This document shows positions 7,705 through 61,003 of a DNA stretch of 64,000 bases, in pieces. The stretch is from positions 1-64,000 of the forward strand of contig JAOXFI010000025.1 in assembly GCA_029232285.1 (NCBI GenBank), in the 5' to 3' direction. The notes beneath the pieces were generated by a model that worked only from the letters and a program-made list of their open reading frames with translations, ran no database searches and was not told the DNA's origin. A program made the translations under genes and the position numbers. The stretch is from Agmasoma carcini (nom. nud.). Its lineage: Eukaryota > Microsporidia > Thelohaniidae. The stretch's first letter is position 1. Every line of letters begins with the position of its first letter.

Positions 7705-8036
7705 ATGATTGTATTATGGTATGATGGGGTTATAATGGGGTGATTATGATGGGGTGATGGGGTGACGATGATGGTGTGATGATGATGTGATGATGGGGTG
7801 ATGATGGGGTGGCGATGATGGGGTGACTATGATAGTGTGACTATGATAGTGTGACTATGATAGTGTGACTATGATAGTGTGACTATGATAGTGTGACTAT
7901 GATAGTGTGACGATGTGACGATGTGACGATGATGGGGTGATGATGGGGTGATTATTATGGGGTGGTGATGAGGTGATGATAGTGTGATGATAGTGTGACT
8001 ATGATAGTGTGACTATGATAGTGTGACTATGTAACT
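7705..8036. repeat. 14-base minisatellite with GATGGGGTGAT repeats
   Basis: Two families are interleaved. GATGATGGGGTGAT-like units lie at the flanks, and the 14-base unit CTATGATAGTGTGA is in near-perfect head-to-tail copies in the middle and again at the right end. The same CTATGATAGTGTGA unit recurs in the separate array near 10.8-10.95 kb. Confidence 0.92.
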
Positions 8037-9789: not shown

Positions 9790-10045
9790 CAGGTCAGATG
9801 TGTGATGGAGTTGGATGATTGGTCAGATAGATTATATGTCAGATAGTGGCATGTTCGGTCAGATAGATGTTCGGTCGGATAGTGTTCAGATGATTGGTCG
9901 GATAGTGGTCAGATAGATGTTCGGTCGGATAGTGGTCAGATAGTGGCATGTTCGGTCGGATAGTGGTCAGATAGATGTTCGGTCAGATGATCGGTCAGAT
10001 GGTGGCATGTTCGGTCAGGTCATATTCGGTCAGGTCAGACATGGC
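9790..10045. repeat. GGTCAGATAGATGTTCGGTCGGATA minisatellite (imperfect)
   Basis: An array of GGTCAGATAG, TGTTCGGTCG and GGATAGTGGTCAG modules in variable order lies right after the phosphatase stop codon. It is GC-richer than its surroundings and extends into what a naive frame would call the N-terminus of the next gene. Confidence 0.9.
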
Positions 10046-10784: not shown

Positions 10785-11045
10785 TCAAGTCTCTGTGTGT
10801 GGTGGGACTATTATAGTGTAAGGGTGTGTGTGGTGGGACTATAAGTGACTATGATAGTGTAAGGGTGTGTGGTGGGACTATATGTGACTATGATAGTGTG
10901 TGGCTATTATAGTATGACCATGTGGCTATTATAGTATGACCATGTGACTATGATAGTATGACCATATGACTATTAACTACTATCCAACATCTATCCAACA
11001 TCTATCCAACATCTATCTACTATCTATCTAACATATACTATTATA
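10785..11045. repeat. GTGTGGTGGGACTAT / CTATGATAGTGTGA / CATCTATC arrays
   Basis: Three short arrays follow one another: GTGTGTGGTGGGACTATTAT, then variants of GACTATGATAGTGTG shared with the 7.8-kb array, then TATCCAACATC repeats. No coding potential. Confidence 0.88.
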
Positions 11046-12658: not shown

Positions 12659-13531
12659 ATGGACATAAAAGATTTACACTTAGATCAGCTAGAAAGTTCA
12701 TCTGAGGATGACAACAATCAAGCATTAGCATATGAACTAGTCAAACATGAAATAGAATCATTCGTTCCAACATCAACCATCAAAGAATCAACTTCTTTCT
12801 TTCAAAATATACCACAAAGTAATTTAAGTAAAATTAAAAAAACTGAAAATATAAAATTAAAATCAATACAATCAAGATTAGCTGCTAAGATGAACAGAAT
12901 TAATAAAATTAAAAGTAAAACATTTAGAAAATTAAATAGAAGAAATAAAAACAAACAAATAATACTTGAAGATGAAGAATCAACTGATAATGAAGACATA
13001 AAAGTACCAAACTTTGAGTTTAAGAATAAAGAATACGACATAAGCAATACTAATGTAGGTATAGTTAAGGAAATGTTTAATAATGAAGAAATTAAAGTTA
13101 GTGATACTGATAGTGATATTGATGAGATTAGGGGTGTATTTGATGAAGAAAAGAAAAATATTGAGAAGGAGGATGCACCTTCTATTAAAAAAACGGTTTT
13201 AGAGGGCTACAACTCATGGGGTGGACCAGGGATAGTTACTAAAGAACATAAAGGTAATACAATATACGAAAAAAAGGATGGTATTAAAATAGAAAATAGA
13301 AAAGACTTCAGTAAGAGCAATGTAATCATTAATGAACATGTTATAAGCAATCCTAAGTATAAATCATCTCTTCCCTATGGACACACCCAGAAGGAATATG
13401 TTAAAAAATTAAAAAACCCGATAACTTTAGAAAGCAACACAACTAGAGTATTTAAAAGGTACGTACAAAACAATGGTAAGTCTAAAAACATTCCTGGAAA
13501 GGATATAGATCCTTCTATATTTGATCCATAA
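12659..13531 (+). CDS. UTP14: UTP14-like SSU-processome protein, strongly reduced
   Basis: The 290-residue protein matches Utp14, the nucleolar U3 processome subunit that activates the DEAH helicase Dhr1 to release U3 from pre-18S rRNA. Family landmarks in order: a KIKSKTFRK motif at 83-91, an acidic middle, GYNSWGG at 183-189 (Utp14 GxGSWGG), RKDFSKSNVIINE at 214-226 (family: R-K-D-x-x-x-x-x-V-I-I-N-E), and LPYGHTQKEYVKKLKNPI near 238-255 (family: LPYPFKSxExYExSLRxPIG). Yeast Utp14 is about 900 residues, so more than two thirds is gone, yet the conserved blocks stay in register. The start is preceded by AAAATTTTATCCTA, the strong start signal. Confidence 0.88.
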   Translation: MDIKDLHLDQLESSSEDDNNQALAYELVKHEIESFVPTSTIKESTSFFQNIPQSNLSKIKKTENIKLKSIQSRLAAKMNRINKIKSKTFRKLNRRNKNKQIILEDEESTDNEDIKVPNFEFKNKEYDISNTNVGIVKEMFNNEEIKVSDTDSDIDEIRGVFDEEKKNIEKEDAPSIKKTVLEGYNSWGGPGIVTKEHKGNTIYEKKDGIKIENRKDFSKSNVIINEHVISNPKYKSSLPYGHTQKEYVKKLKNPITLESNTTRVFKRYVQNNGKSKNIPGKDIDPSIFDP

Positions 13532-19855: not shown

Positions 19856-20574
19856 GTAAAAAATTTGTAAATTATTTTTAAAGAATTTTTTTAAATAATA
19901 AAAAATATAATTTTCATATTATTTTAGTATTGATTTATATATAATAATTCAAGGTTAAGAATTAATAATTTGTACTGTAGTTAGGAAAATTATGAAAATA
20001 TTTTTTTTGATATTAATAACTTATAAAGTTGAATAACTGGTTTTTTTGATATATTACATTTGATAACTAACTAACCGATTATTTTAATGTTTTCTAAAGA
20101 GTATCTGTTAATCTAGAAAATAATAAATGCTAAACCAGTAAGTAAAAACTCTTAAAATCAAACAATAATAAATAAATGTGGAAGGGACGGACGCGGGAGG
20201 GGTAGTGACCATACACTTATCGTGTTTTGGTAAAAATTGACTGTCATACAATATTATATTGTAGATGGGTTTAATTCTATTACGCACACCAACCATCTTA
20301 AATCTTTGAGATTTCGAACATAATGTATATTTATCAAATATATAACAGGTCTGCAGAGCGAACAAGATTGACCGTATCCCTTTGGCCCTACTTTAGTCCC
20401 TGGCATGCCCGACTTGTTATAGCCCATTAGCAGTTGTTACCACGTGGTGGTCTAGACTCATCACATAGCTAATTAGACGTAATTTACAACATTTTAACTC
20501 TGTACTAACCGCAAAATATCTAATTTCATAAAAATATTGATAAACACTTAAAATAACTTAAATATGGCTAATTT
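19856..20574. other. Intergenic spacer with dispersed GC-richer repeat (copy A)
   Basis: About 20150-20475 is clearly GC-richer than the flanks and shares blocks with the two halves flanking the Tc1 element at 30.8-32.1 kb: TATTGTAGATGGGTTT, CTATTACG, and near its right end CCACGTGGTGGTCTAGACTC ahead of ATCACA. It is therefore a dispersed repeat of unknown class. No gene is accepted here. Confidence 0.7.
20150..20475. repeat. Dispersed repeat, uninterrupted copy
   Basis: This copy corresponds to 30640-30780 joined to 32084-32225. Shared words are GTGTTTTGG/GTGCTTTGG, TATTGTAG, GGGTTT, CTATTACG, then after the interruption point ATCTTTGAGATTT/ATCTTTATGAAAT, and finally CACGTGG-x-GGT-TxGACTCATCACA. 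Its class (LTR, SINE or other) is not clear. Confidence 0.65.
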
Positions 20575-51578: not shown

Positions 51579-52589
51579 TCATTCATCAGGGTCAGCAATT
51601 CCATTTTCAGTAATTGAGAAGGTAGCTTCAGATTCAGGTATGCTTGGAGAATCATATATTTTACAAATACGGCAATCACCTTTACCTTTTCTAAGATAAA
51701 GACGAGTAGTAGAGGCATGTGCAATAATATGTCCACCAATTGGTTTTTTAGTATCAGCACCAAACATAGCAGCCGCTCCATCCACGTTTGCTACGACTTG
51801 ATTGCTTATTAGAACGGCTATGCCATATGTCTCAGCTAAATTTCTCAATTGCCTTAAAAATCTACCTAAATGTATTTGTCTTGCTCCTAGTTCTCCACGA
51901 CCAAGGTAGTCGGATCTATAAAGAGCGGTTGCTGAATCAATTATTAACAATGAATACTTTGATTCAGCCATAAGGGCGGAAGCCTGTATAAGAAGCTCAA
52001 CTTGGTGATCAGAGTTGTACGCTTTCGCGTAACTTATGTTGTCAAGTACAGTTTCAGGATCTAAACCGAATCTATCAGCCAAAGGTATGATTTTTTCTGT
52101 CCTGAATGTACCTTCTGTGTCAATATACATAACTTTTCCACCTCCTCCACCACATTCTTGTGAAACCTGGGCAGTAACTGCCAAGGTGTGACAGAGCTGA
52201 GTTTTACCGGTTCTAAATTCACCAAAAACTTCAGTTATAGAACCACTTTCAAGACCTCCATTTAAAAGTTTATCAAGTTCTGAACTACCGGTAGTAATAT
52301 AAACAATAGATTGTCTTTTCAAATGATATTCAGAAGCGTTAATAAACCCCATTGGAACAAGCTTACCAGCATCTTTAATAAGCTTATCAACCTTAGCATC
52401 ACTGAAACCTCTTATATTTATAAGTTCTTTCCGAGGTGCCAAGACAACACTTTCAACAGTGTTATATCCTGCTTCTACAAGTTTGTTAACATCACCCGCA
52501 GTAATTCCAACCTGCTTAAAGGCCTCAACCGATAGGACACCACTTCCCTCTACTTCTTCTACCATTGTTTCAGCTCTTTTCTGTACCAT
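51579..52589 (-). CDS. RAD51: RAD51 recombinase
   Basis: The 336-residue protein is the eukaryotic RecA homologue that forms filaments on single-stranded DNA for homologous recombination. The N-terminal helix-hairpin-helix domain spans about 20-80. The ATPase core has Walker [10 protein letters not shown] at 123-131, LLIIDS Walker B near 214, and the [18 protein letters not shown] block in parts ([20 protein letters not shown]), with [19 protein letters not shown] at the end. The wording fits Rad51 rather than Dmc1, since the N-terminal half has the Rad51-type [13 protein letters not shown] and no Dmc1-specific features are obvious. A five-glycine run (CGGGGGKV) before the IDTEG block is slightly longer than in yeast. 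It lies near HOP1 and the U3 candidate. Confidence 0.95.
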
Positions 52590-53016
52590 GGATAGAAATT
52601 TATCAAAAAAAATTATATTCGAAATGTGTCGTAAAAATTTTTGAAATATTTTTTATAGTCGAGCATATTTGAAAATAACTTTTTTTGATATTATAAACCC
52701 CATTCATATACTTACATGATTGTAGAATTAAATTAAATCAAAATGAAATATTGTTTTTAATCCTCTAATCAATAATACCTCTACCAATATTCTTGACGAC
52801 TACTTATGAGGATCAATTCTTAAGCTCCTTCTATGGTTACAATGACTTAGCCACGTCTATCGTTCGATAGCGATAACCGTGAGTGTATTTATCAAAAACA
52901 TTTATAAAGGTAAATATTGAATATTAATCACTACAATTTTTCAAATTTAACTAATACAATATTTTATCACTAATTATCGTTATATTTAAAATAATTATAT
53001 CATTGCTTTTTACATT
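52590..53016. other. Spacer with a GC-rich island
   Basis: The flanks are AT-rich without genes. The centre (about 52780-52900) is clearly GC-richer than any other intergenic stretch nearby and contains the U3-like candidate described separately. Confidence 0.6.
52795..52895 (+). ncRNA. Candidate U3 snoRNA (5' domain)
   Basis: GACGACTACTTATGAGGATC at 52795 followed by AATTCTTAAG resembles the highly conserved 5' end of U3 snoRNA. In fungi and animals a GAC/UACUU box is followed by box A', then AGGAUCAUUUCUAUAG (box A). Box A differs here at three or so positions. A perfect hairpin, CTATCGTTCGATAG, lies about 60 bases downstream. Boxes B, C and D are not recognised, and a full U3 would be longer, so the 3' end is uncertain. 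The GC island in AT-rich DNA also fits a structured RNA. Strand and exact ends are tentative. Confidence 0.45.
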
Positions 53017-54003
53017 TTATTCATTTTCGTAACAATGTATTTTATCCACTGAGATATTACATTCCATATTTGGACCGTTGAAAAGTCCTTTAACCTTTTC
53101 CTTTACGTCTTTAGCTGTTACAATACCAAATTCATACTTTTTGCCTATTCTCTTTACAAAGCCCTCTTCTATAAGCTTGGTAAAATATTTTCTTGTATCT
53201 ACACCAGAAATTCCTAGTCGAACGCTAAGCTTTTTAGGGGTTGTTATTCCTTCATTATAAAGTATTGAGACAATCCTTCGAAATATACTTAAATTTCTAT
53301 CATGGAATGTCAACACCCGCTCGCAAATCAAGCAAATAAATTCTTTGGGTATTCTTCTATCAGTGTTGGTAAAGAAACCTACACAGTTAGTATGCAGCCA
53401 ATTATTACATTTGACACATTCTATCATCTCTCCATCAACATTATTAATTGTGCATATACATCGAATTTGACGATTATCATTTTCCTTCTCTTGATCAAAT
53501 TTATATCCATTAACACATCCAAGTTCTTGGAAATCATCCTCAGGGCCATATTCATTTTTTTTAAAGAATATTTTTACATCATCTACCGACACCTCATTTT
53601 TTCTTTTAATCTCCCAAATTTCATTCCTAAGAACAAAATTATCAATTGATATTGGTGCTTCTGTATATATTTTTAGTCTTAGCACCTTTTTTTTATCAAT
53701 TGATGGTAGTTTTTGCATTTTTTTACAAAATTCTTTAAAATTTTGAATTCCATTGTTGTTAATGTGATATATTTCTTCAAATTCACCCCCTACGCACACA
53801 GCCAGTATTATTTTCTTAATACTTTCTAAGTTTTCAACCGCTTTAATCCATTTCATAAAAGATTCAGTATTTTCGTTATTTTTCAATAATTTTAACTTGA
53901 TATTGCCCATTTTCTCTTCATAAAACGAATCCTCTGAGAAGAAATCACGTAGATATGAGATTGTGCTTAGAACCATGTACATATTGGTTTGCTGCTGGAT
54001 CAT
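53017..54003 (-). CDS. HOP1-like HORMA/PHD meiotic axis protein
   Basis: The 328-residue protein combines three domains seen in fungal Hop1. A HORMA domain covers 1 to about 165 (MVLSTISYLRDFFSEDSF, family: YLRDLFPDxxF; then IIKKIILAVCVGGEFEEIYH). A PHD finger spans 180-228, with ligands C182, C184, C196, C199, H204, C207, C224, C227 (C4HC3). A winged-helix-like segment covers about 235-300 (RIVSILYNEGITTPKKLSVR, then TRKYFTKLIEEGFVKRI). Hop1 builds the meiotic chromosome axis, promotes breaks and biases repair to the homologue. Together with RAD51 nearby, this suggests a retained meiotic programme. The C-terminus lacks an obvious closure motif. The gene shares a 32-base promoter with RRP8. 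Confidence 0.78.
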   Translation of the reverse strand: MIQQQTNMYMVLSTISYLRDFFSEDSFYEEKMGNIKLKLLKNNENTESFMKWIKAVENLESIKKIILAVCVGGEFEEIYHINNNGIQNFKEFCKKMQKLPSIDKKKVLRLKIYTEAPISIDNFVLRNEIWEIKRKNEVSVDDVKIFFKKNEYGPEDDFQELGCVNGYKFDQEKENDNRQIRCICTINNVDGEMIECVKCNNWLHTNCVGFFTNTDRRIPKEFICLICERVLTFHDRNLSIFRRIVSILYNEGITTPKKLSVRLGISGVDTRKYFTKLIEEGFVKRIGKKYEFGIVTAKDVKEKVKGLFNGPNMECNISVDKIHCYENE

Positions 54004-54035: not shown

Positions 54036-54668
54036 ATGGCAATTGAAGATGTTTTTAAAAAAAGACTAATAGGAGGAAAATTTAGACGATTGAATCAAAA
54101 GTTATATGAAAAGTGTGATTTAACTAAAAAAGAGGCCAATGATTACCATGAATACTATAAACATCAACAATCTAAGTGGCCAGAGCACCCTCTCAATAGA
54201 ATCATCCTAAAACTTAAAAAATCAGAGGAAAACCAAGAAATAGCAGATCTTGGATGTGGATCAGCTGAGATAAGCACAAATTTTAAGAATGTAAAGTCTT
54301 ATGATAAGTTTCCAACGTCTAAGAAAATCACAAAGGCTTCATTAGATGCGGTACCATGTAAAGATAATCAATTTGATGTTGCAGTCTGCTGTTTAAGTCT
54401 GATGGAAGCTTATATAAGTCCTATACTTAAGGAGGTCAATAGAATCCTAAAAGTGGGTGGTTTATTTTATATGTCTGAGGTGCGAAGTCGTATTCATAGC
54501 GTTCGAAGGTTTATTGATGATCTTAAGAAGTTCAAGTTTGAGCTAGTTGAGGTTGAAACGGATAACAAGATGTTTGTATTGATTGTGTTTAAAAAGATCG
54601 ATGATTGTAACTTTCCAAAGAAATTACCGGTTGTTACATTAAAGAATTGCCAATATAAAAAAAGATAA
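54036..54668 (+). CDS. RRP8-like rRNA methyltransferase
   Basis: The 210-residue protein is the Rrp8 nucleolar methyltransferase, which makes m1A in 25S rRNA. GGKFRRLNQKLYEK at 13-26 matches the family's RFRYINEQLY. YYKHQQSKWPEHPLNRII follows (family: [20 protein letters not shown]). The SAM pocket has DLGCGSAEIS at 71-80, DVAVCCLSLM (family: DVAVFCLSLM) and EVRSR (family: EVSSR) after the GG loop. Yeast Rrp8 is 392 residues, so the N-terminal extension is absent. All SAM-binding positions look intact. It is divergent from HOP1 and lies 97 bases upstream of NSA2 on the same strand. Confidence 0.93.
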   Translation: MAIEDVFKKRLIGGKFRRLNQKLYEKCDLTKKEANDYHEYYKHQQSKWPEHPLNRIILKLKKSEENQEIADLGCGSAEISTNFKNVKSYDKFPTSKKITKASLDAVPCKDNQFDVAVCCLSLMEAYISPILKEVNRILKVGGLFYMSEVRSRIHSVRRFIDDLKKFKFELVEVETDNKMFVLIVFKKIDDCNFPKKLPVVTLKNCQYKKR

Positions 54669-54765: not shown

Positions 54766-55539
54766 ATGCCTCAGAACAATTATGTTGAACAATATATTAA
54801 AGAACATGGAAGATCACCAGACTATGAGATAAGAAAAGCTAAAAGAGAGGCAAGAAGTGAGAAGTTAAGAATAAAGAACGCACAAAAACTCACTGGTATC
54901 AAAGCTAAACTGTTTGCTAAGAAGATGTACACTGAAAAAGTTAATCTTAAAAAGAATATTAAGATGAAGGAAAAGAAAATTAAAGAAGTCTCTAAGAAAT
55001 CTTCCGAGCCGCTTCCTGCTTACTTACTTGACAGAGAACAATACGAGAATGCGCAAGATATAAACAACAAAATTAAACAGAAAAGACAAGAAAAGGCTGC
55101 TAAATTCTCTGTTCCAGTAGCTACAGTACAGGGAATGCCAGAAACAGAAGTATTCAGTGTATTTAAGAGCGGTAAGAGGGGAAATAAGAGCTGGAAAAGG
55201 GTGGTTAATAAGCACTGCTTTGTAGGTCAAGATTTTACACGAAAGCCTCCCAAATATGAACGATTTATCAGGCCAATGGGTCTACGTATGAAAAAAGCAC
55301 ATGTTGTCCATCCTGAATTAAATATCACAACCCAACTTTCCATCATATCAGTTAAGAAAAATCCACATTCTGAAGTATTTACTGGACTTGGTGTCATAAC
55401 AAAGGGTACAATCGTAGAAGTAAATGTAAGCGAGTTAGGAATGGTTAATAACACTGGACAAATAATATGGGGTAAGTATGCACAGGTCACTAATCATCCA
55501 GAAAATGATGGCTGTATTAACGCTGTTCTTTTGGTATAA
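54766..55539 (+). CDS. NSA2: NSA2 60S ribosome-assembly factor
   Basis: The 257-residue protein matches Nsa2/TINP1 over its entire length (yeast: 261), making it one of the most conserved genes here. MPQNNYVEQYIKEHG opens it. The middle has PAYLLDREQYENAQ, ending in IKQKRQEKAAKF. Then come KRVVNKHCFVGQDFTRKPPK (in register with the family), ERFIRPMGLRMKKAHVVHPE and the terminal VSELGMVNNTGQIIWGKYAQ, followed by VTNHPENDGCINAVLLV. It acts on pre-60S particles in the nucleolus with Nog1. No truncation is seen, in contrast to UTP14. Confidence 0.98.
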   Translation: MPQNNYVEQYIKEHGRSPDYEIRKAKREARSEKLRIKNAQKLTGIKAKLFAKKMYTEKVNLKKNIKMKEKKIKEVSKKSSEPLPAYLLDREQYENAQDINNKIKQKRQEKAAKFSVPVATVQGMPETEVFSVFKSGKRGNKSWKRVVNKHCFVGQDFTRKPPKYERFIRPMGLRMKKAHVVHPELNITTQLSIISVKKNPHSEVFTGLGVITKGTIVEVNVSELGMVNNTGQIIWGKYAQVTNHPENDGCINAVLLV

Positions 55540-59392: not shown

Positions 59393-61003
59393 TTATTTTC
59401 TTTGGAAAGTGAACTGGGAAGCGATAAGAATATGATCAGAGGGGAAGTGCAAGCTCGGCAAACCTATGCAAGTATCGCAATACTCATCTTCAATTGGAGA
59501 AAGAACAGCAGTTAACAATAGGTTATCAGAGTAGAATATATAATCAATTGCACCTTTGAAGAAGGGCGTGTAATTTGTAAACGTTAAGTCTTGATTCATA
59601 TAAGAGTCTAATAGATTAAGAGAGTGTCTGTAACCATCCTGAGGGCCTTTTATGTAGGGTTGGAATGGGTTTTGCTTGGTACAATTCTTGATAACATATT
59701 CATACAAATCACTTTCACTAAAGCTATTAAAATCTCCACATATAAGGACTACACTATCTTTATATCTATCCTTAAGCTTTTGAATCTCTTCTAGTAATAT
59801 AATTGCCTGAAGCAACTTAACATCAGGATAATCTGGATTCCAAAACAAATGAGTATTAGCACATATCAAAACAGGAAGACCTGGTCGTTCCAAAATAATA
59901 ACTATGGCTATATTTTCTTTTTTATCATGTCTCGCTAATAAATCATGGCTGGTACAAAATCTTGGGTCGTTTACAATTTTTTCTAAGAAATTAATATTTT
60001 GTTGTTCAATCAATTTGAACTTATCTTTAACCCAAAATATTGCAGAACCATATTTTGCTTTGTTCTCTTGGGGTCTACCTTTCAAACAAAATGTACTATC
60101 ATATTTTAGTCTCATTTCAAGTTGATCTCTATAGAAATCTACAAAGAGGAGAGGATCAACTTCTTGAAGACATAATATATCACAATCAGCACTAACTATA
60201 TCTGATAATATTTGTTCTTTTCTTGCGTCTACGTTAATGACATAGCTTGGGGCATAAAGACATTTGCAGGCGTAAAAGTTACAAAAAATATTATAAGTTC
60301 CAACCTTGACACTCTCATACAACATATCCTTTGATACAGTCAAATCTATCCAAATTCTCTCAGCGGGAGGTTTATAATTTGTATTGTTTTCTCTACAGTA
60401 ACTGATTATTTGTTTTCCTTTCAAGGAATTAAATGGTTCTATCAAATTGTTTTTTGTTAGATCAAGAATATCAAGTCCATATAATGCACCAAGTTCCATT
60501 GGGATTCTTGTTATGCTGTTATTACTCAAATATAACTCTCTAAGAGATATGATACGCCCTAATGATGGTGGTATCTCTTTAATTTTGTTATTTGACAGGT
60601 TTAGTTTTTCCAAATTTTTCAATTTGCAAATATCAGAGGGAATTACGGTCAGATCGTTATTTTGCACAAGAAGTTCTTTAATATAGGTAAGATCGAATAT
60701 TGAAGGCGATAATATCTTTAACAACTGGTATGAGAGGTCCAATCCCAGTACTCGATCTTGTCCAGATGGTGGTGGTAAGTTTGACTTTCTTTTTGTTTGT
60801 GTTTCTTCCATGGATCCTTGGGATGAAGTATTTTTGCGGGAAAAGTAATATGGCATTGACAGGGAAGGGTGTTTGTTATTTGTGTTAGTTCTTTGTTGTT
60901 TTGTTTGTTTTATCCAATAAAATGTGAGACTTTGTACTTTTGTAATTTCATAGTTGATTCTCGATCTCCAAAAATTAAAATCTGGTTGTTTTGTAATAGC
61001 CAT
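59393..61003 (-). CDS. CCR4: CCR4 deadenylase (LRR plus EEP nuclease)
   Basis: The 536-residue protein is Ccr4, the poly(A) nuclease of the CCR4-NOT complex. Residues 90-205 contain about five leucine-rich repeats (LEKLNLSNNKIKEIPPSLGR, then LRELYLSNNSITRIP) that bind Caf1. The EEP catalytic domain follows from about 235: VGTYNIFC, DILCLQEVD (metal-binding Glu), NTHLFWNPDYPD, ICGDFNSF and the final FPSDHILI. All catalytic positions are present. The true start may be the ATG at 60856, preceded by CCCTTCCCTGTCA, which would remove 49 residues of low-complexity N-terminus. The LRR-EEP core is the same in either case. Confidence 0.95.
   Translation of the reverse strand: MAITKQPDFNFWRSRINYEITKVQSLTFYWIKQTKQQRTNTNNKHPSLSMPYYFSRKNTSSQGSMEETQTKRKSNLPPPSGQDRVLGLDLSYQLLKILSPSIFDLTYIKELLVQNNDLTVIPSDICKLKNLEKLNLSNNKIKEIPPSLGRIISLRELYLSNNSITRIPMELGALYGLDILDLTKNNLIEPFNSLKGKQIISYCRENNTNYKPPAERIWIDLTVSKDMLYESVKVGTYNIFCNFYACKCLYAPSYVINVDARKEQILSDIVSADCDILCLQEVDPLLFVDFYRDQLEMRLKYDSTFCLKGRPQENKAKYGSAIFWVKDKFKLIEQQNINFLEKIVNDPRFCTSHDLLARHDKKENIAIVIILERPGLPVLICANTHLFWNPDYPDVKLLQAIILLEEIQKLKDRYKDSVVLICGDFNSFSESDLYEYVIKNCTKQNPFQPYIKGPQDGYRHSLNLLDSYMNQDLTFTNYTPFFKGAIDYIFYSDNLLLTAVLSPIEDEYCDTCIGLPSLHFPSDHILIASQFTFQRK

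Follow-up and report, generated by a model that had tools for sequence, protein, structure and literature searches.

A noncoding island of about 98 bases (52795 to about 52892, + strand), which opens with GACGACTACTTATGAGGATCAATTCTTAAG, carries the features of a U3 snoRNA 5′-end in the 64,000-nucleotide stretch of DNA analysed (the window). The explanation we prefer, to which we give an even chance, is that the island encodes a divergent U3 of small size, normal in its 5′ guide but degenerate in its 3′ boxes. Membership of the locus in the U3 family was not established: it failed on box D, on boxes C/C′ and on the Rfam threshold. The initial annotation, which had proposed a possible U3 gene here, was thus borne out at the 5′-end, while canonical C/D boxes, an Rfam match and an alignable 3′ domain were not found.

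The letters of the 5′-end were read directly as GACGACTACTTATGAGGATC (52795–52814) followed by AATTCTTAAG (52815–52824). The candidate RNA start is a GAC box-like element at 52795–52797 (in the context GACGAC, + strand). It is followed by a box A′-like TACTT at 52801–52805 (+), which matches the fungal consensus TACTY (PMC5832005), and by the box A-like AGGATCAATTCTTAAG at 52809–52824 (+), which agrees with AGGATCATTTCTATAG in 13 of 16 letters. GAC, box A′ (TACTY) and box A (GGATCA) were therefore all found in the order and spacing of a U3 5′-end, and with GAC, A′ TACTT, A AGGATCA and TTCT..AG this was the best U3-like site of the window. A model built on sequence alone from four U3 5′-ends, two of them taken from papers, ranked it first in the window when the filters were off (10.7 bits, E 0.051 per 64 kb, which corresponds to about 3 when scaled to the genome) and missed it with default filters. 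The first 34 bases were also compared with known U3 RNAs by local alignment: the score against yeast U3 was reached by none of 1000 shuffles and that against Entamoeba U3 by 22 of 1000.

In an AT-rich genome of 4.26 Mb with a dozen TACTT..AGGATCA sites, one of them could have come to lie next to GAC and TTCT in a GC-richer spacer by chance. A block score composed of GAC, TACTY and RGGATCWKTTCTATAG with free spacers gave 26.03 bits at the site and 17.3 at the runner-up in the window, while no score in 60 Mb of simulated sequence exceeded 25.96. The motif score by itself predicts about 0.14 such sites per genome (8.5 Mb on both strands, one near-equal score per 60 Mb simulated), a number that leaves room for coincidence, as do the 13 exact TACTT-N0-8-AGGATCA places in the genome, the lack of canonical C/D boxes and the unremarkable fold described below. 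The wider pattern TACTY-N1-8-GGATCW, which occurred at 51 places of the assembly, was barely above its reversed control (38). On the other hand, the narrower, exact pattern was found at only 3 places in the reversed control, and the flanks set the locus apart: GAC stood in the 6 bases upstream of 4 of the 51 places, TTCT lay downstream in the phase of U3 at one, and both were present together at the 52795 locus only. This locus is also outside any long frame and GC-rich (0.39), whereas the other three places with GAC lie in frames of at least 192 codons. We consider chance unlikely. The resemblance to a U3 5′-end proved to be real, and the genome census yielded no other site of this kind.

The island lies between RAD51 (51579–52589, − strand) and a gene for a HORMA plus PHD protein (HOP1-like; 53017–54003, − strand), for the product of which a protein search gave no relative at E ≤ 0.001. 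The best named relatives of RAD51 were those of Enterospora canceri (74%), Nucleospora cyclopteri, Ecytonucleospora hepatopenaei, Enteropsectra and other microsporidia, which identifies the genome as microsporidian; we take it to be near the Enterocytozoon group. The description of the place as a GC island in the AT-rich spacer between these two genes agreed with both the letters and the GC windows: 60-base windows mostly inside the island have a GC content of 0.35–0.43, compared with 0.12–0.25 in the spacer on both sides. Open frames across its middle do not exceed 34 codons, and the DNA search detected it just once in the 4.26-Mb assembly. Where the proposed RNA stops is uncertain; its 3′-end was placed at about 52892, and the first run of five Ts downstream is at about 52936.

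The same initial annotation had counted four U3 partners or co-workers in the window. The identities of UTP14 (12659–13531), an RRP8-type methyltransferase (Methyltransf_8; 54036–54668) and NSA2 (54766–55539) were confirmed. UTP14 is a factor of the SSU processome, while NSA2 and RRP8 are large-subunit factors, so UTP14 alone stood as a partner of U3; IMP4/Brix was not found in the 27 of 30 window ORFs of at least 150 aa that were scanned. Among the literature titles and abstracts listed, with the microsporidian ncRNA survey PMC5499648 outside this scope, none described this locus.

The GC content of the island could also mark a different structured RNA (another box C/D RNA, an snRNA or a relative of RNase P/MRP or SRP), in which the U3-like 5′-end is accidental. 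Noncoding GC islands do indicate RNA genes in this genome, namely U6 and both tRNAs of the window; the clear U6 snRNA gene at 60040–60136 of contig C31 (L070), which scored 56.2 bits and exceeded the cut-off, has a GC content of 0.52 between flanks of 0.18–0.21. No Rfam family was detected at the island even at E ≤ 10, however, and neither an Sm site, a U6-pairing stretch nor an RNase P core was seen by eye on either strand, which makes such an RNA decidedly improbable. No promoter element common with U6 was seen by eye. GC islands alone are weak evidence for an RNA gene: among the 20 listed GC peaks of the window (80-mers outside ORFs of at least 90 aa) the island ranked 12th, and simple repeats, both tRNAs and others were ahead of it. 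Degenerate tandem repeats of GATG/GTGA-, GGTCAGATA- and GTGGTGGGAC-type (7748–7986, 9800–10006 and 10799–10878) are among the GC-richest noncoding stretches of the window.

Downstream of box A the likeness to U3 ends, as the initial annotation had warned in calling the remainder unrecognisable: canonical C and D boxes, an Rfam match and an alignable 3′ domain were all lacking. The Rfam search that it had proposed was run on the window and on the island and gave no U3, and the gathering cut-off of RF00012 or RF01846 was not reached. Boxes C′ and C (WYGATGA/RTGATGA) were sought as well: between box A and 53250, RTGATGA does not occur even with one mismatch, and the only substitute is a degenerate AUGACUU near 52842. 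Alignment of a 151-base candidate to yeast U3 gave a score that 6 of 1000 shuffles reached, and against Entamoeba U3 663 of 1000 shuffles were as good. Past the 5′ domain, no alignment to either U3 was better than shuffles: for downstream parts of 119 and 69 bases, 238 and 127 of 1000 shuffles were as good with yeast U3 and 537 and 424 with Entamoeba U3. The fold was ordinary as well (z −0.37, and −0.76 for the whole 3′ part). Box D is described as very stringently conserved, almost invariant, in a survey of 310 fungal U3 genes that included Microsporidia (PMC5832005).

The first CTGA that could serve as box D is at 53049, inside the neighbouring gene. With it, a U3 of full length, about 260 nt, would extend into the HOP1-like gene at its 3′-end, and transcripts that overlap are a known feature of microsporidia. 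Such an RNA would nevertheless have to cross over 100 very AT-rich bases in which neither box C nor box C′ occurs even when one mismatch is allowed, and its CTGA would belong to the coding end of the neighbour; we regard it as very improbable.

The 3′ part of a short RNA may instead be organized around a stem directly after the 5′ domain, formed by UAUGGUUA (52832–52839) and UAACCGUG (52874–52881), which bracket CAAU-GA ... GA. We take this geometry (52832–52881, +; spacer CAAU) to be that of a C′/D kink-turn, in which AUGACUU and GCGA would be the boxes. A kink-turn stem of equal length occurred in 18 of 3000 shuffles, and none of 3000 matched a stricter definition, which was set after seeing the site. 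The minimum-energy fold is a different one, the hairpin CACG-UC-UAUCGUU-CGAU-AGCGAUA-AC-CGUG (52852–52881, +); at −12.5 kcal/mol, it is 2.3 kcal/mol more stable than the fold in which the kink-turn stem is forced (−10.2 kcal/mol). The AGCGA at 52869–52873 (+) is identical to the core of the fungal U3 box B (AGYGA), a match of five letters that chance could produce and for which no B/C stem was shown. It shares its letters with the GCGA taken as box D in the kink-turn reading, so that the two are alternative interpretations of one stretch. The genome does have box C/D machinery: a single Nop-family protein was found (13555–14103 of contig C20; L112), which among solved structures is closest to Nop56.

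A good 5′-end without 3′ boxes is also the expected look of a truncated copy, so the locus could be a 5′ fragment or a pseudogene of U3, with the functional gene unassembled or too divergent for the models used. No SSU rRNA was detectable in the assembly by the family model and two conserved patterns; rDNA seems to be missing or withheld, so that the assembly is either incomplete or in part withheld, and a parental U3 gene could be missing likewise. This explanation is weakened by the failure of the DNA search to find a second copy of the island and by the absence of a parent-like site among the other 50 A′–A places or the 41 distinct box A-like places viewed in context (in 49 records; 108 box A-like places were counted in one census), none of which was U3-like by eye. 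We consider a pseudogene or fragment improbable. The census depends on GGATCW in box A, and a U3 with a divergent box A would escape it.

The fungal model RF01846 pointed to two sub-threshold places in the assembly (L001, 14.7 bits; L002, 12.2 bits). They were rejected as U3, since the full Rfam scan gave no U3 there at E ≤ 10 and TACTY-N1-8-GGATCW was found on neither strand; L001 adjoins a copy of a dispersed repeat. RF00012 gave nothing over the assembly at E ≤ 0.001, in a search that had no informative positive control. The check for a convincing U3 elsewhere, which according to the initial annotation would count against the locus, hence turned up nothing convincing in the assembly, with the reservation that the power of Rfam for microsporidian U3 is uncalibrated and that the census needs GGATCW. 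The viral contigs contained three pattern matches, unrelated-looking by eye, and had neither a relative of the NSA2 of the window nor an exact copy of a 22-base piece of the island.

The dispersed repeat is represented in the window at 20198–20306. A 190-base query detected it in 10 of the records examined, the query's own included (the others being L055, L059, L061, L033, L070:863–957, L001, L043, L044 and L046); the other copies were 74–80% identical over 74–132 bases. The U6 gene is about 540 bases away from one copy, and those in L055 and L061 carry AGGATCATTTCTT, a mimic of U3 box A.

The pairing potential of box A was evaluated with a generic microsporidian SSU 5′ primer rather than the SSU of this genome: AGGATCAATT is complementary to GGTTGATTCT of this primer in 10 contiguous pairs, G-U included. 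The energy of this pairing is ordinary, since it was reached by 259 of 2000 shuffles and by 1443 of 12792 40-mers of the window. A possible hairpin CUUA-U-GAG-GAUCAA-UUC-U-UAAG (52803–52824, +) would expose box A in its loop. It was discarded as a signal, because 949 of 5000 redrawn sequences gave an equally good fold.

Considering the short, divergent U3 that we prefer, we infer that the single-copy gene is transcribed on the + strand from about 52795 into a U3-type RNA of about 90–140 nt and that this RNA assembles into an RNP. Its 5′ domain would keep the rRNA-guiding GAC start, box A′ and box A. In the cell it would pair with the 5′-end of the SSU rRNA and delay the formation of the central pseudoknot until the cleavage of the pre-rRNA, as U3 does. 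The 3′ part may be bound by a reduced set of box C/D core proteins through one degenerate kink-turn, which would substitute for the canonical C′/D and B/C motifs. A more far-reaching form of the proposal, which we put forward tentatively and hold to be rather doubtful, is a minimal U3 of about 90–100 nt, reduced to the 5′ domain that guides on rRNA plus a single degenerate kink-turn; without the B/C motif and canonical C/D boxes, it would perhaps be Rrp9-independent, in a lineage with a stripped-down SSU processome. Microsporidia are reported to have a much reduced complement of ribosome-biogenesis and SSU-processome factors (PMC3919561, PMC3879963), which makes a reduced U3 plausible, though it is not evidence for one. 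Mpp10 (PF04006) was matched neither in the genome nor in the controls, so this result is uninformative. One survey reported U3 for each of its 147 fungal genomes (PMC5832005). If a U3 without box D does exist here, the irreducible core of this RNA is the guide and not the C/D body, and the locus offers a natural minimal SSU-processome RNA for tests of structure and function. If it does not, the locus is a caution against calling U3 from a 5′-end in AT-rich genomes.

Among the known systems, box C/D kink-turns (the C′/D motif, the U4 5′ stem-loop) resemble the 3′ part in the stem – NAAU – GA ... GA – stem geometry. They differ from it in that GCGA stands here for CTGA and AUGACUU for RUGAUGA, and in that the competing hairpin is more stable. 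The M1 hairpin of fungal U3, where box A is in the loop, is comparable to the possible box A hairpin described above. U3 itself (Rfam RF00012; fungal RF01846) shares with the locus the order and spacing of GAC, A′ TACTT, A AGGATCA and TTCT and the setting of an own intergenic gene, while the locus is without a canonical box C, a CTGA box D, a recognisable B/C stem and an Rfam match at E ≤ 10. The candidate RNA, at about 100 nt, is also far from the 333 nt of yeast U3. Short U3 RNAs are found in Entamoeba (209–225 nt) and Leishmania (143 nt by figure-legend coordinates; PMC3542256). In the five Entamoeba sequences GTCTGA is at or near the 3′-end, and no such end was seen here; what the candidate has in common with the Leishmania and Entamoeba RNAs is a shortened RNA with a conserved 5′ domain.
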